Shown here: positions 1 through 5,942 of the stretch, in pieces
Numbering within the stretch: position 1 is the stretch's first letter
How the letters are laid out: each line of letters opens with the position of its first letter
DNA from: an uncultured Flavobacterium sp.
GTDB taxonomy: Bacteria > Bacteroidota > Bacteroidia > Flavobacteriales > Flavobacteriaceae
Assembly (NCBI RefSeq): GCF_946479975.1
Contig: NZ_CAMLIX010000272.1
Coordinates: forward strand, 1 to 5,942
Reading direction: 5' to 3'
DNA length: 5,942 nucleotides
Notes under the pieces: generated by a model
The model's database searches: none
What the model saw: the letters and a program-made list of their open reading frames with translations, nothing else
Told to the model about the DNA's origin: nothing
Translations under genes and position numbers: made by a program

Positions 1-1
1 C

Positions 2-2194
2 CAAGTAAACGGAATTTCTACTATTCTAAAATCAAGATCTCATAATGAATTGGTCGTAGATAAATTGCAATTTTATATCGATTATCTAGAGCAAGGAGAA
101 TACAATTTAATTGATTCTTATGGAGCTGTTCCTTTTTATGTTACTATTGATAAAACAAAAGGACAACTGGCCAATACATTAATTAAAATTAAATTTTTGA
201 GTGAAAATGTATATCAAATTGAAATACCTTTCGCAAATAATTCGGTTTCGTTAATTAACTACAGCGATAATAGTTATAGTAATACTGCTATCCAAATAGG
301 AACTTTTTCGAAAAAATTTAAGGTAGGCGAACTGGTAAATCTTCCTTTTTTAAATCTTAAACTTCAAATAAATGATAATCCTGGATTTTATAAAGGGAAA
401 GAATATTTTATAAGGTTCAATGATTTTAATGGAACTGTTGGTCGATACAGAGGAATTGCTGTCGATGCTGATAAAGGGAGCGGTTCAATTTTAAACTTGT
501 CCTTATCAGGTACAAATAAAGCTAGAATGGTTGATTATTTGAATGCTACCGTAAACATGCTCATTAAAATACAACTGGATGGCAAAAATCAATTTGCAAC
601 AAATACTATAAGATTTATTGATAGTACTTTGGTTGCAATGGAATCGCAATTAAAGCAAACGGGTAATGAATTAAAATCGTTTCAAAAAGATAAAAATATT
701 TTTCAAATAGAAGATGGTGGCGCTCAAGTCTCAACCAAAATTGTAAATTTTGATGTAGAAAAAGATCAAGTTACTAGAAAAATTGCCTACTACAATTCTT
801 TAAAATCGTATTTAAACAGTAGTGGAGATTATTCAAGATTGCCTGCTCCATCAGTGGCAGGAATTGAGGATCCTAATATCGTTGCTAATGTTTCAAAACT
901 TATCGCACTTTCAACTCAGAGATCAGAAATGGCGTATGCTGTAAAAAGCGAAAAGATATTTAAAGATTTTGACAATCAAATGGAGGCGGTGAAAAACGTT
1001 CTTCAAGAAAACATTGTAACAGCGAAATCTTCGTTAATGTATGACTTATCTTTAGTAAATGCGAAAATTGGTGAGGCAGAAAGTACTGTTCGAAAACTTC
1101 CTGTAGAACAACAAGAGTTGTTAAAAATTAAAAGAAAATACGACTTAAACGATAATATCTATACAGAGTTTCTTCAAAAAAGAAATGAAGCAGAAATAGT
1201 TAAAGCTTCCAATTTGTCAGATATTCATTTTATTGATTCAGCAAAAGATATAGGAGGAGGATTACTAGGACCAAAAACTTCGGTAAATTATGTACTGGCT
1301 TTATTTTTAGGTACTTTAATTCCGTTGTTATTTGTCTTGGCAATTTTCTTTATAAATAATTCGATTCAGAATACTGACGATATTGCTAAGCTTACTCAAA
1401 TTCCATTACTTGGCGTCATTGGTGTTAATAAAGATTCACTTAATCTAGCGGTATTCGAAAAACCAAAATCCGCACTTTCTGAAGCATTTAGAGGAATACG
1501 TTCTTCTCTTCAATTTTTGTACAAGAAACAGCAGATAAATGGCTCGAAAACCTTAATGATTACTTCTTCTATAAGTGGTGAAGGAAAAACATTTTGTTCT
1601 ATAAATATTGCAACCGTTTTTGCTTTAAGTGAAAAGAAAACTGTTATCGTTGGTTTGGATTTAAGAAAACCTAGATTAGCTGATGAGTTTCAGATAAATA
1701 CTTCTCTTGGAGTTGTTAATTATCTAATCAAACAGAATAGTTTAGAAGAGATTACAAATTCGACCGCTATTCCAAATTTAGATGTAATTCTTTCTGGACC
1801 AATTCCTCCAAATCCCTCAGAACTTATTTTAAGTGATGCAATGGGTGAACTGATTGATGAATTAAAGCTAAAATATGACTATATTATTTTAGATACACCT
1901 CCAGTTGGCTTGGTTTCAGATTCATTAGAGCTGGTTCAATTCTCAGATGTTATCCTGTATATAGTAAGACAAAATTATACCAAAAAAGAGATGATCTCGT
2001 TATTGAATAACAGAATAAAACGTGGTGAACTAACGAACATTAGTATCGTTTTAAATGGTTATGAAAATAAAGCAAAATATGGTGCAGCTTATGGTTACGG
2101 ATATGGTTATGGCGCGTATTCAAATGGTTATCATGAAGAAGAAGTGAAATCTGGTTTTTGGAAGACACTTTTTGATAGATTTAGAAAAAGCTAA
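2..2194 (+). CDS. wzc: Wzc-type polysaccharide co-polymerase / tyrosine autokinase, 5' partial
   Basis: Inner-membrane bacterial tyrosine kinase that, in its family, controls polymer length and export with a Wza-type outer-membrane channel. The frame is open to the window edge: codons from position 2 read QVNGISTILKSRSHNE, typical of the Wzz/GumC region. The TTG at 50 is therefore internal, and the first transmembrane segment and true start lie upstream. Visible order, numbering codons from position 2 (730 residues): periplasmic Wzz/GumC region with a helical, probably coiled-coil part (about 200-400); second transmembrane segment (about 431-451); ExxRxxR motif EAFRGIR (494-500); Walker A SGEGKT (525-530); Walker A' VGLDLRKP (550-557); Walker B IILDTPP (628-634); and a Gly/Tyr-rich tail with seven Tyr at 693-710, the probable autophosphorylation cluster. 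All ATP-binding motifs are intact. It is 10 nt upstream of the epimerase gene, so probably in one operon. Family assignment is firm; the polymer is unknown. Confidence 0.95.
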   Translation, partial: QVNGISTILKSRSHNELVVDKLQFYIDYLEQGEYNLIDSYGAVPFYVTIDKTKGQLANTLIKIKFLSENVYQIEIPFANNSVSLINYSDNSYSNTAIQIGTFSKKFKVGELVNLPFLNLKLQINDNPGFYKGKEYFIRFNDFNGTVGRYRGIAVDADKGSGSILNLSLSGTNKARMVDYLNATVNMLIKIQLDGKNQFATNTIRFIDSTLVAMESQLKQTGNELKSFQKDKNIFQIEDGGAQVSTKIVNFDVEKDQVTRKIAYYNSLKSYLNSSGDYSRLPAPSVAGIEDPNIVANVSKLIALSTQRSEMAYAVKSEKIFKDFDNQMEAVKNVLQENIVTAKSSLMYDLSLVNAKIGEAESTVRKLPVEQQELLKIKRKYDLNDNIYTEFLQKRNEAEIVKASNLSDIHFIDSAKDIGGGLLGPKTSVNYVLALFLGTLIPLLFVLAIFFINNSIQNTDDIAKLTQIPLLGVIGVNKDSLNLAVFEKPKSALSEAFRGIRSSLQFLYKKQQINGSKTLMITSSISGEGKTFCSINIATVFALSEKKTVIVGLDLRKPRLADEFQINTSLGVVNYLIKQNSLEEITNSTAIPNLDVILSGPIPPNPSELILSDAMGELIDELKLKYDYIILDTPPVGLVSDSLELVQFSDVILYIVRQNYTKKEMISLLNNRIKRGELTNISIVLNGYENKAKYGAAYGYGYGYGAYSNGYHEEEVKSGFWKTLFDRFRKS

Positions 2195-2204
2195 CTCTTT
2201 TTAA

Positions 2205-3188
2205 ATGGAAAACTCAACAAAAAATAAAATTTTAATTACTGGCGGAGCTGGATTTATAGGTTCAAATTTAACTGAGTACTTTTTAACTTCAGGTTATAAG
2301 GTGGTTTGTTTGGATAATTTTTCTACGGGGCATCGACATAATTTGAAAGATTTCTTAAATAATCCTGATTTCAAATTAATTGAAGGCGATATACGAAATT
2401 TAGAAGATTGTGTTTTGGCAGTTGAAGGAGTAAATTATGTTTTACATCAAGCAGCTTTAGGTTCTGTGCCAAGATCAATTAAAGATCCGATCACTACAAA
2501 TGACGTTAATGTCTCTGGTTTTCTAAATATGCTTACAGCAGCTCGCGACGCAAAAGTAAAGCGTTTCGTTTATGCGGCTAGCTCATCAACTTACGGAGAT
2601 TCACAAGGATTGCCAAAAGTAGAAGAAGTAATAGGAAAACCTTTGTCGCCTTATGCAATTACTAAATATGTAAACGAATTATACGCTGAAATTTTTAGCA
2701 GAACTTACGGATTGGAAACAATTGGACTTCGTTATTTCAATGTTTTTGGAAGAAAACAAGATCCAGATGGAGCTTACGCAGCCGTAATACCAAAATTCGT
2801 AAAGCAATTTATGAATTACGAAAGTCCAGTAATTAATGGAGATGGAAATTATTCGCGCGATTTTACATATATAGATAATGTGATTCAGATGAATGAATTA
2901 GCAATGACTTGTGAAAATCCAGAAGCGGTTAATACAGTTTATAATACTGCATTTGGAGATAGAAACACATTAAATGATTTAGTGAAATATTTGAAAGAAT
3001 ATTTATCTGAATTTGATTCTAAAATTAAAGATGTTTCTGTAGTTTATGGCGAAAATCGAGCAGGTGATATTCCCCACTCATTAGCAAGTATTGAAAAAGC
3101 AAAGTCAATACTAGGTTATAATCCAAAATATTCTTTACAAGATGGCTTGAAAGAAGCTGTTGGATGGTATTGGGATAATTTAAAATAA
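2205..3188 (+). CDS. wbpP: NAD-dependent UDP-N-acetylhexosamine(uronate) 4-epimerase, WbpP/TviC type (SDR)
   Basis: Cytosolic extended short-chain dehydrogenase of 327 residues, a normal full length. It should invert C4 of a UDP-HexNAc or UDP-HexNAc-uronate through a 4-keto intermediate on bound NAD. Visible motifs: Rossmann glycine motif GGAGFIG (13-19), an acidic residue after strand 2 (D37), HQAALGSVPRS (81-91), the SSS segment (126-128), and catalytic Y150 and K154 in SPYAITK. Blocks such as LRYFNVFGRKQDP, and PHSLASIEKAK near the C-terminus, match remembered Pseudomonas WbpP and Salmonella TviC far better than classical GalE. Ser292 aligns with Tyr299 of E. coli GalE; a small residue there is associated with acceptance of N-acetylated sugars. 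ATG 2205 is chosen because it is 7 residues before the first beta strand and 10 nt after wzc. The likely partner is the TviB-like dehydrogenase at 5440. Substrate direction (GlcNAc to GalNAc, or GlcNAcA to GalNAcA) cannot be settled from sequence. Confidence 0.9.
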   Translation: MENSTKNKILITGGAGFIGSNLTEYFLTSGYKVVCLDNFSTGHRHNLKDFLNNPDFKLIEGDIRNLEDCVLAVEGVNYVLHQAALGSVPRSIKDPITTNDVNVSGFLNMLTAARDAKVKRFVYAASSSTYGDSQGLPKVEEVIGKPLSPYAITKYVNELYAEIFSRTYGLETIGLRYFNVFGRKQDPDGAYAAVIPKFVKQFMNYESPVINGDGNYSRDFTYIDNVIQMNELAMTCENPEAVNTVYNTAFGDRNTLNDLVKYLKEYLSEFDSKIKDVSVVYGENRAGDIPHSLASIEKAKSILGYNPKYSLQDGLKEAVGWYWDNLK

Positions 3189-3213
3189 ATAAGATCAAGG
3201 TAAAAATAGATCA

Positions 3214-4605
3214 ATGAAAATTACAAAAATTTGCTGCATAGGTGCAGGTTATGTTGGAGGACCAACTATGGCAGTTATTGCTCAAAAATGTCCAGATATT
3301 CAAGTTACAGTTGTTGATTTAAACGAACAACGCATTGCAGGATGGAATGACCCAAATCCAGAAAATATTCCAATCTATGAGCCAGGACTTTCTGAAATTG
3401 TTGCAGAAGCTAGAGGAAGAAATTTATTTTTTTCAACCGATGTCGATAAAGCGATAGATGAAGCACAAATGATATTTATTTCGGTAAACACGCCAACCAA
3501 AACCTATGGAAAAGGAAAAGGAATGGCAGCCGATTTAAAATATATTGAATTATGCGCGCGACAAATTGCAAGAGTTGCAAAACAAAATAAAATTGTAGTC
3601 GAAAAATCAACTTTGCCAGTTAGAACAGCTGAGGCAATTAAAAGTATATTGGATAATACCGGAAATGGTGTTCAATTTCAGATTTTATCCAATCCAGAAT
3701 TTTTGGCAGAAGGAACAGCGGTTACAGATTTATTAAACCCTGATAGAATTTTAATTGGAGGCGACACAACGCAAGAGGGCAAAGAAGCTATTAATGCATT
3801 AGTTGATGTTTATGCTAATTGGGTTGAAAGAGAAAAAATCTTAACAACAAATGTTTGGTCATCAGAATTGTCAAAGCTTACGGCAAATGCATTTTTAGCA
3901 CAGCGAATTTCTTCTATTAATGCAATGTCTGAATTGTGTGAGAAGACTGGTGCAGATGTAAGCGAGGTTGCAAGAGCAATTGGAATGGATAGTAGGATTG
4001 GTCCTAAATTCTTGAAAGCATCAGTAGGTTTTGGTGGGTCTTGTTTTCAAAAAGATATCTTGAACTTAGTTTATATCGCAAAGTCTTACGGTTTAAACGA
4101 AGTTGCAGATTATTGGGAGCAAGTAATTATTATGAATGATCATCAAAAAAGAAGATTTTCTAATAAAATTGTTCAAACTTTGTACAATACTGTTGCCGAT
4201 AAAAAAATTACTTTCTTAGGTTGGGCTTTCAAAAAAGACACAAATGACACTAGAGAATCAGCCGCTATTTATGTTGCAGATGATTTAATAAATGAGCAGG
4301 CCAACATCTCGGTTTATGATCCAAAGGTTTCGAGGAGTAAAATGTTAGCAGATTTAAATTATCTAGAAACAAGAACTGAAGAGAATAATAATCAATCTCT
4401 AAGTATTTTTGAAAATGCTTATGAAGCCTGTAAGGGAGCACATGCCGTTGCTGTATTAACAGAGTGGGATGAATTTACGACATACGATTGGCAAAAAATT
4501 TATGATTCGATGCATAAACCAGCTTTTGTTTTTGATGGAAGAAATATTTTAAATGCTAAAAAATTAGAATCTATTGGATTTGTTTACAACGGCATCGGTT
4601 CTTAA
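3214..4605 (+). CDS. ugd: UDP-glucose 6-dehydrogenase
   Basis: Cytosolic enzyme that oxidises UDP-glucose to UDP-glucuronic acid in two NAD-dependent steps, supplying an acidic precursor. It is 463 residues and complete. Visible: N-terminal NAD-binding motif GAGYVGG (10-16), the [11 protein letters not shown] block (159-169) of the active site, [16 protein letters not shown] (216-231) with the conserved Lys221 and Asn225, and the catalytic cysteine in [10 protein letters not shown] at Cys277. A C-terminal UDP-binding part follows, with [16 protein letters not shown] around 334-350. The segment [13 protein letters not shown] near the N-terminus and the overall length resemble the animal-type UGDH subfamily rather than the shorter E. 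coli Ugd; this is from memory of the families. The ATG at 3214 lies 25 nt after the epimerase stop with no terminator between them, so both are probably on one transcript. All key residues are present, and function is well supported. Confidence 0.95.
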
Positions 4606-4610
4606 ATTTC
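4580..4610 (+). promoter_or_regulatory. Possible weak Bacteroidota promoter for the UpxY gene
   Basis: A TTG (4580-4582) is followed after 20 nt by TAAATTTC (4603-4610), one base away from the Bacteroidota -7 consensus TAnnTTTG. The spacing is the same as in the stronger promoter at 5319. It overlaps the 3' end of ugd. In an AT-rich genome a one-mismatch match can easily arise by chance, and the UpxY gene could equally be read through from ugd. Confidence 0.25.
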
Positions 4611-4627
4611 TTTTTGTGTTTAAAGTG

Positions 4628-4657
4628 TGAAGTGAAGTGAATGAAAATGAATGTGAA
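4628..4657 (+). repeat. Short TGAA-rich repeat in the leader of the UpxY gene
   Basis: TGAA occurs six times, starting at 4628, 4633, 4638, 4642, 4648 and 4654. The first three are true 5-nt tandem steps (TGAAG, TGAAG, TGAAT). The stretch lies inside a C-free run on the + strand from 4611 to 4667. It is the only obvious structure in the 90-nt gap between ugd and the UpxY gene. It may be a regulatory leader or simple low-complexity sequence; no function is assigned. Confidence 0.5.
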
Positions 4658-4695
4658 GTAGAGGTGTCAGTTTTACTTCTTTATAAATATAAAAA

Positions 4696-5160
4696 ATGAA
4701 TTGGTACGTAGTCTATACAAAACCTAAGTGGGAAAAAAAAGTTGCCGATAAACTCACGCAGCTAGGAATAGAATGTTATTGTCCATTAATTACACAAGTT
4801 AAACAGTGGTCAGATCGAAAGAAAAAAATAGAAGTACCGCTTTTCAACTCCTATGTTTTTGTTAGGGTTCCAGATTCCGAAAGGAATTCAGTTTTTGAAG
4901 TTGCTGGCGTAGTAAGGTATTTGTTTTGGTTAGGAAAGCCAGCTATTGTAAAAGATCAAGAAATCGAGATTATTAAAACAAGTTTAAGAGATCCTCATAT
5001 AAGTGATATTACTGTTTCAACAATTCAAGTTGGAGATAAAATAAAATTAGAGTCTGGAGCATTCAGTAATCAAAGTGCAATTGTAAAAGAAGTTTCTAAT
5101 AATTATTATATCTTAGTTTTAGAAACTTTAGGATGTGTTTTAAAAATAAAATACAAATAA
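4696..5160 (+). CDS. UpxY-family transcription antiterminator (NusG paralogue)
   Basis: Small cytosolic NusG-like protein of 154 residues. In Bacteroides, UpxY proteins bind RNA polymerase and promote elongation of their own capsule operon; I infer a similar locus-specific role. Visible: an N-terminal NGN domain beginning MNWYVVYTKPKWEKKVADKL (1-20), then CYCPLI (27-32) and PLFNSYVFVRV (48-58), followed by VRYLFW (73-78). A C-terminal KOW-like segment starts at VGDKIKLESGAF (112-123). The KOW part is degenerate: the usual GPF-G-G core reads GAF-N-S. The protein is shorter than a typical housekeeping NusG and sits among sugar-nucleotide genes, which argues for the specialised paralogue. The ATG at 4696 directly begins the conserved WYVVY strand, and the upstream bases are A-rich with no clear Shine-Dalgarno sequence. 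A strong terminator follows within 20 nt. Confidence 0.92.
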   Translation: MNWYVVYTKPKWEKKVADKLTQLGIECYCPLITQVKQWSDRKKKIEVPLFNSYVFVRVPDSERNSVFEVAGVVRYLFWLGKPAIVKDQEIEIIKTSLRDPHISDITVSTIQVGDKIKLESGAFSNQSAIVKEVSNNYYILVLETLGCVLKIKYK

Positions 5161-5176
5161 AGGCGTTATCAAGTAG

Positions 5177-5226
5177 AAAAACAGAAGAAAATATCTTTTT
5201 TTAGATTTTTTTCTTCTGTTTTTTTT
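5177..5226 (+). terminator. Intrinsic (Rho-independent) terminator after the UpxY gene
   Basis: A perfect 10-bp core stem CAGAAGAAAA (5182-5191) pairs with TTTTCTTCTG (5209-5218). ATCT (5193-5196) can extend it inward by pairing with AGAT (5203-5206), leaving a 6-T loop. The stem is followed by eight T (5219-5226), and five A (5177-5181) precede it. It starts 17 nt after the UpxY stop codon. The stem is AT-rich but long. The A-tract also gives the opposite strand a shorter U-run, so weak bidirectional action is possible. Confidence 0.88.
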
Positions 5227-5318
5227 ATCAAGTAAATTTTTACATACTGATTAATAAGGTATTGGGTGTGAGTGCTTTTTTATTAACACTTTCTTTTTAA
5301 GTATTACGTTAAACAGTA

Positions 5319-5349
5319 TTGAAAAAGTTGAGTTATTGTACTATATTTG
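5319..5349 (+). promoter_or_regulatory. Bacteroidota-type housekeeping promoter for the TviB-like gene
   Basis: TTG (5319-5321), a 20-nt spacer, then TATATTTG (5342-5349), an exact match to the known Bacteroidota consensus TTG-N17-23-TAnnTTTG. Transcription would start a few bases downstream, about 5353-5358, just before the folded leader and roughly 85 nt upstream of the next start codon. Its position directly after a terminator supports a new transcription unit. Confidence 0.75.
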
Positions 5350-5362
5350 CCGAAAATGATTA

Positions 5363-5429
5363 ATTTAGGTAGCTGAGTCAGAATATTGTGACTTGGAACG
5401 GCGAAGCCGTGAAATTTTATTACCTAAAT
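5363..5429 (+). promoter_or_regulatory. Structured 5' leader RNA, predicted three-helix junction; possible regulatory or antitermination element
   Basis: Three nested or adjacent helices can be drawn. P1: ATTTAGGTA (5363-5371) with TACCTAAAT (5421-5429), 9 bp perfect. P2: CTGAGTCA (5373-5380) with TGACTTGG (5389-5396), 8 bp including two G-U pairs, 8-nt loop. P3: ACGGC (5398-5402) with GCCGT (5406-5410), 5 bp around a GAA triloop; its core is the unusually stable GCGAAGC hairpin. P1 closes over the other two and ends 10 nt before the ATG at 5440, so it could affect translation initiation. No T-tract follows, so it is not itself a terminator. The P1 5' strand contains GGTAGC, shared with the core of the enterobacterial ops element bound by RfaH. 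I do not recognise it as a known riboswitch. The pairing is seen; function is inference. Confidence 0.6.
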
Positions 5430-5439
5430 AGATTGAAAA

Positions 5440-5895
5440 ATGGAATTAAAAAATAATATTAAAATCGCGGTTATTGGTTTAGGCTATGTTGGATTGCCTC
5501 TAGCTCGATTATTTGCTACAAAATATTCAGTTGTTGGTTTTGATATCAATGAATCAAGAGTCAATTCTTTAAAGTCTGGAACAGATACTACTTTAGAAGT
5601 TGAAGATGAAGTTTTGCAAGATGTTTTAGTGAAAAATCTTGACTCTGAAAAAGGATTGTACTGTACAACTTCTTTAAACGAGATTGAAAATTGTAATTTC
5701 TATATTGTTACCGTTCCTACTCCGGTTGATAAAAATAATAGACCAGATTTGACACCTCTTTATAAGTCAAGTGAGACAGTTGGAAAGGTGTTAAAAAAAG
5801 GAGATATTGTAGTTTATGAATCTACCGTATATCCTGGCGTAACAGAAGAGCAATGTGTACCGGTTTTAGAAAGAGTTTCAGGACTTCAATTTAAT
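5440..5895 (+). CDS. tviB: UDP-N-acetyl-D-glucosamine 6-dehydrogenase, TviB/WbpO type, 3' partial (cut by adapter)
   Basis: Nucleotide-sugar dehydrogenase expected to oxidise UDP-GlcNAc (or UDP-GalNAc) at C6 to the uronic acid. Only the first 152 codons are genuine. Visible: NAD-binding IAVIGLGYVGLPLA (9-22), an acid after strand 2 in VVGFDIN, FYIVTVPTPVD with the PDLTPL block that follows, and GDIVVYESTVYPG. This string of blocks matches remembered TviB/VipA and WbpO sequences and differs clearly from the Ugd at 3214. The ATG at 5440 is the natural start, with strand 1 beginning at residue 7. After SGLQFN the family normally continues with an F-x-G-Y-S-P-E-R segment; here the frame instead enters adapter, giving the spurious peptide RSEEHTSELQS. 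The SDR epimerase at 2205 is the probable partner. The catalytic cysteine and UDP-binding domain are missing from the window. Confidence 0.92.
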
Positions 5896-5942
5896 AGATC
5901 GGAAGAGCACACGTCTGAACTCCAGTCACTTGACAGGATCTC
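5896..5942. other. Illumina TruSeq adapter contamination with index (not genomic)
   Basis: Positions 5896-5929 match the standard 34-nt TruSeq Read 1 adapter, starting AGATCGGAAGAGC and ending CTCCAGTCAC. Then come 8 nt that fit an index (TTGACAGG, 5930-5937) and ATCTC (5938-5942), the first bases of the constant P7-side tail. The base composition changes abruptly from the AT-rich flank. The first A (5896) may be genomic or the A-tail. The sequence keeps an open frame, so automatic gene callers will extend the dehydrogenase into it. Confidence 0.98.

Follow-up and report, generated by a model that had tools for sequence, protein, structure and literature searches.

Where does the bacterial DNA stop in this record, and what follows it? 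An earlier note on the window, by which we mean the whole 5,942-nt stretch analysed here, had read its last 47 nt as TruSeq adapter, an 8-nt index and the start of the P7 tail. That reading is correct to the base. A script search of the window matched 5896-5929 with the first 34 nt of the TruSeq index adapter with 0 mismatches. In the expected layout an index of 6, 8 or 10 nt is followed by the P7 tail (ATCTCG...); the window has 8 nt and then ATCTC, the start of that tail, of which it thus holds 5 nt only. It is this spacing between adapter and ATCTC that fixes the index slot at 8 nt. In two phage records a longer stretch of the P7 tail comes after the same adapter. The synthetic tail of 47 nt (34+8+5) lies on the + strand, points outward and is flush with the last base of the window, which, following the earlier note, was taken as the end of the record. 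Its GC content is 51%, compared with 32% for positions 1-5895. No adapter 11-mer was found elsewhere in the window with the oligonucleotides tested (TruSeq R1/R2, P5, P7 tail, Nextera, mate and small-RNA), and the matches of the R2 and R1 primers at 5896-5898 correspond to 13 nt that these oligonucleotides have in common with the index adapter. The features discussed are collected in Table 1.

Table 1. Features of the right-hand part of the window, with the basis of each assignment.
Feature	Position	Strand	Basis
Candidate leader, 87 nt	5350-5436	+	In the spacer that separates the truncated dehydrogenase gene from the UpxY-family antiterminator gene
Genuine first 152 codons of a TviB-like nucleotide-sugar dehydrogenase gene, cut by the adapter	5440..5895	+	NCBIfam models; end of homology
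Artefactual in-frame extension RSEEHTSELQSLDRI, 15 codons, residues 153-167	5896..5940	+	Translation
Start of the Illumina TruSeq index adapter, synthetic	5896..5929	+	Exact 34-nt match; same 34-mer near contig ends of unrelated records
8-nt slot TTGACAGG in the sample-index position, synthetic	5930..5937	+	Sits between adapter and ATCTC
First 5 nt of the P7 tail (ATCTC), synthetic	5938..5942	+	Directly after the index slot

The same junction is found at the protein level. The ORF that begins at 5440 is open to the window end, with codon 152 ending at 5895, and its artefactual part reads RSEEHTSELQS and then LDRI, 15 residues in all. It matches Pfam PF03721, and the NCBIfam models TIGR03026 (positions 2-144 of 413) and TviB (5-145 of 425) are matched in their N-terminal parts only, each under the curated NCBIfam whole-protein cut-off, as expected of a fragment. 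Of 7995 candidates that were scored, 7991 matched, and the best 120 were taken as protein relatives; because their size was limited to 0.55-1.75 times that of the query, most of them fall short of the full-length enzyme. Among these best 120 of 7991, the last query residue in the first-ranked local alignment is 152 in 97 cases, 153 in 20, and 154, 160 and 164 in one case each, and homology to nucleotide-sugar dehydrogenases breaks at base 5895/5896 in 117 of them. At least 5 residues lie beyond residue 152 in 118 of the same 120 relatives, 66 of which carry DFFAGYSPERINP and 93 GYSPERINP. The open frames of the two nearest relatives from a class-wide search are 435 and 433 aa long, from which we infer that about 280 real residues are missing. 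To judge by these sequences, the last ORF carries 15 synthetic residues and lacks roughly 280 genuine ones.

DNA relatives were reached from a Bacteroidales genome by way of one locus and then by that class-wide search, which covered 295 genomes and led to genome G104 (88% protein identity); the named relatives of the UpxY-family protein of the window are Flavobacterium species. Positions 4696-5895 of the window were matched in 281 of 299 genomes of the G104 genus searched, and the best ten of these 281 matches were taken as loci for comparison (L254-L263). Colinearity of all ten with the window begins at about 3180-3200 and reaches to 5879-5895, with 82-85% identity; in six of the BLAST alignments the end falls exactly on 5895, and in the other four 12-16 bases before it. 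Read from the flanks, every one of the ten has GA(A/G)GA... directly 3' of the AAT or AAC codon that corresponds to 5893-5895, and runs on past the junction with dehydrogenase codons. Where the window has A at base 5896, all ten loci have G, which places the junction at 5895/5896 with little ambiguity. The 13-nt adapter core was found on neither strand in any of 20 loci (L244-L263, of which L244 and L262 come from the same genome). An exact oligonucleotide match, a break in protein homology and DNA relatives that diverge at the junction and are free of the adapter core thus bear out the claim, also made in the earlier note, that the record ends in adapter and not in genome.

How did the adapter come to stand there? 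We consider it practically certain that 5896-5942 is unremoved TruSeq adapter read-through, and no result of the analysis spoke to the contrary. The exact adapter sits at the window end, points outward and begins where homology breaks, all of which is observed directly. The events behind it would start with a library insert that ended at present base 5895 and was shorter than the read, so that read 1 would have continued beyond the insert and taken in the index adapter, its 8-nt index and the beginning of the P7 tail. The read tails would then have been left untrimmed, or incompletely trimmed, and the assembler may have carried the contig on through the adapter bases to where the reads stop. 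For insert length, trimming failure and assembler behaviour we rely on general knowledge of Illumina libraries. The placement at a contig end fits the general pattern of adapter contamination.

Could the 47 bases nevertheless be genomic, either a real gene end or an insertion that resembles the adapter by chance? The reading frame does stay open through the adapter, but the 34-mer is open anyway in two of its three forward frames (RSEEHTSELQS and DRKSTRLNSSH, the third being IGRAHV-stop). Moreover, with the composition of the window itself, the chance of the 34-mer is about 10^-22 per site under a 0-order model and 10^-22.2 under a first-order Markov model, and protein and DNA homology both break at the junction. 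On the exact match together with the homology break, a chance or genomic origin was rejected; its probability is, in our view, negligible. The adapter might also have been joined in the wet lab, by chimeric ligation or by the presence of adapter inside a re-sequenced molecule, and not by read-through of a short insert. Internal copies with flanks on both sides in finished records, such as phage Ccr29 and E. coli SK0832, favour such an event, but the window stops 5 bases into the P7 tail, as read-through predicts, and we hold joining in the wet lab to be highly improbable. Under read-through, the tail is an artefact of an already known and published kind and not a biological feature. It has no importance as biology, and its meaning is one of data hygiene only: the record should lose its last 47 nt, or have them masked, and its last ORF should be treated as 3'-partial at residue 152.

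How common are such tails? In MGnify, according to Moeller et al. 2024 (PMC11536531), 1110 of 15,657 species assemblies are adapter-enriched at p < 0.01, with about 157 expected, and the adapter is concentrated at contig ends, its reverse complements lying at contig beginnings. The window resembles the contamination reported there in the adapter itself (the 12-mer of the paper, AGATCGGAAGAG, with the adjoining piece CACACGTCTGAACTCCAGTCA), in its placement at a contig extremity and in its outward orientation, and differs from it in that a single record and not an assembly-wide count is concerned, and in that the index slot TTGACAGG can be read.

Our own scans covered IMG/VR contigs, searched for the adapter followed by 6-10 nt and ATCTC, and GTDB-representative contigs, searched for the 34-mer alone, with at least 120 loci in each. 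To count every match as a contig-end match was tried and dropped, since retrieved DNA may end at a storage boundary, and distances to contig ends were counted on whole contigs only (61 of 80 viral rows and 47 of 80 genome rows among the matches listed). Of the whole-contig matches listed, 60 of 61 (viral) and 48 of 49 (genome) point outward and have the downstream end of the adapter no more than 250 nt from the contig end; uniform placement would give 2.3 and 2.7 such matches, respectively, and the lone exceptions among the matches listed were 1257 nt (viral) and 466 nt (genome) from the contig end. Measured to the end of the retrieved DNA, the same distance held in 119 of 122 viral and 120 of 123 genome matches, out of at least 245 matches at 240 loci. 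The tailed contigs of both collections are like the window in that the 34-mer lies near contig ends and points outward, and unlike it in that, among the matches listed, they carry other indexes. The 8-nt spacing from adapter to ATCTC also occurs in 32 of the 122 viral and 58 of the 123 genome matches listed. BLAST with the 47-mer at E 1e-5 found 16 of 50,697 phage records and 2 of 5,426 E. coli genomes, and none of 72,556 plasmid records.

Several of these records merit mention on their own. In Staphylococcus phage Andhra (NC_047813.1), both annotated 155-bp terminal repeats (L264 14-168 and L265 181-335) include the 34-nt adapter followed by ACAGTG, and beyond the right-hand copy the record has ATCTCGTATGCCGT from the P7 tail, most of it outside the annotated repeat. 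Adapter and P7 tail at the ends of Andhra make the outer part of the annotated repeat look synthetic; among the passages listed from a review that names Andhra and inverted terminal repeats, none mentions this. The interior of the 229-kb record of Caulobacter phage Ccr29 (KY555145.1, L267 301-364) contains, where no gene is annotated, in an intergenic spacer, a complete TruSeq adapter whose index slot reads GATCAG, together with the P7 tail. In Stenotrophomonas phage Bhz63 (OR797046.1, L266 301-334), the 34-nt adapter lies within the annotated hypothetical protein WVW77611.1, part of which is therefore probably synthetic, and in Klebsiella phage vB_KleS-HSE3 (MT075871.1, L268 301-330) 30 nt of adapter lie in the interior, between two annotated genes. 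The circular 'complete' chromosomes of E. coli SK0832 (NZ_AP046542.1, L269 201-235) and p1-49 (NZ_AP040990.1, L270 201-233) also contain adapter copies (35 nt exact and 34 nt at 97.1%, respectively), one of the two lying between cheY and cheB and the other beside a bglG annotated as partial.

Do translated adapters reach protein collections? The earlier note had supposed so, and for this dehydrogenase family it is the case: adapter-derived C-termini were found in 3 of the best 120 of 7991 relatives (P0087, P0092 and P0109), in which the same artefact has already yielded false C-termini. P0087 ends in ...RSEEHTSELQSRFDL, the expected translation of the adapter followed by a 6-nt index such as GTTTCG and by ATCTC, and both P0092 and P0109 terminate in IGRAHV. 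The false protein of the window itself was absent among the best 120 of 7991 relatives, where the top identity listed was 88%. The literature searched had no mention of RSEEHTSELQS or DRKSTRL, and, judged from its listing, held nothing on point about spurious adapter-derived protein entries.

A further proposal, that the index could identify the library of origin, was not borne out by the searches made. An exact scan for the adapter followed by TTGACAGG gave 0 matches in the IMG/VR contigs (viral_contigs) and 0 in the GTDB-representative contigs (genome_contigs), and the literature searched showed no index set with TTGACAGG. Eight bases 3' of the adapter are present in 233 of the 245 adapter matches listed; none of these slots equals TTGACAGG, the nearest, in 7 of the matches listed, differing from it at 3 positions. 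In the literature searched, neither TTGACAGG as an index nor longer adapter-index strings were found; one occurrence of TTGACAGG was rejected, since there it forms the last bases of a primer used in PCR of a human promoter. A scan of viral_contigs with a piece of the spacer of the window gave no match.

What does the genuine part of the window encode? Positions 2-5160 (+) hold a polysaccharide cluster made up of genes for a Wzc-like chain-length/tyrosine kinase (cut at its 5' end), a TviC-like epimerase, a TuaD-like nucleotide-sugar dehydrogenase and a UpxY-family antiterminator. For the UpxY-family protein (4696-5160, +) an identical entry exists, P0121, whose longest contig is 1438 nt, shorter than the window; it is possibly another assembly of the same organism.

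Between this gene and the truncated dehydrogenase gene lies the candidate leader, predicted to fold as a three-way-junction RNA. Its folding energy is -24.6 kcal/mol, compared with -12.1 +/- 2.5 kcal/mol in 200 shuffles (z -5.0, no shuffle as low). A consensus built from ten sequences contains 24 pairs, of which 1 is changed in both bases and 3 are disrupted in one or two of the sequences, so that covariation support for the structure is thin. In 30-nt bins, the mean identity of the ten relatives to the window is 0.95, 0.88 and 0.77 in the leader, and 0.60-0.93 in the neighbouring genes and 0.69-0.91 in the rest of the spacer; since neighbouring bins reach a like identity, the leader does not clearly stand out from its surroundings in conservation. 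With strict filters, a search of 101 genomes with a model of the leader found it once in each of 20 genomes, some of which contributed training sequences to the model (for example G378, G312, G339 and G354), and all 20 copies overlap the same locus when coordinates are compared by eye. No Rfam family reached its gathering score in the window, the three Rfam matches in 5161-5500 being far below their gathering scores and outside the leader, and no title among those listed in a literature search names this leader. We put forward as a doubtful possibility that 5350-5436 is a structured RNA not yet catalogued, folded into a three-way junction, which marks the polysaccharide operon for its own UpxY-type antiterminator, a link that adjacency suggests. 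Directly 5' of the leader, at 5342-5349, stands TATATTTG, which fits the Bacteroidota promoter motif TAnnTTTG. Further upstream, after the UpxY-family gene, a terminator-like hairpin occupies 5181-5226 (+), with ACAGAAGA at 5181-5188 facing TCTTCTGT at 5212-5219 and a T-run behind it; by eye, it is similar in most of the ten relatives.
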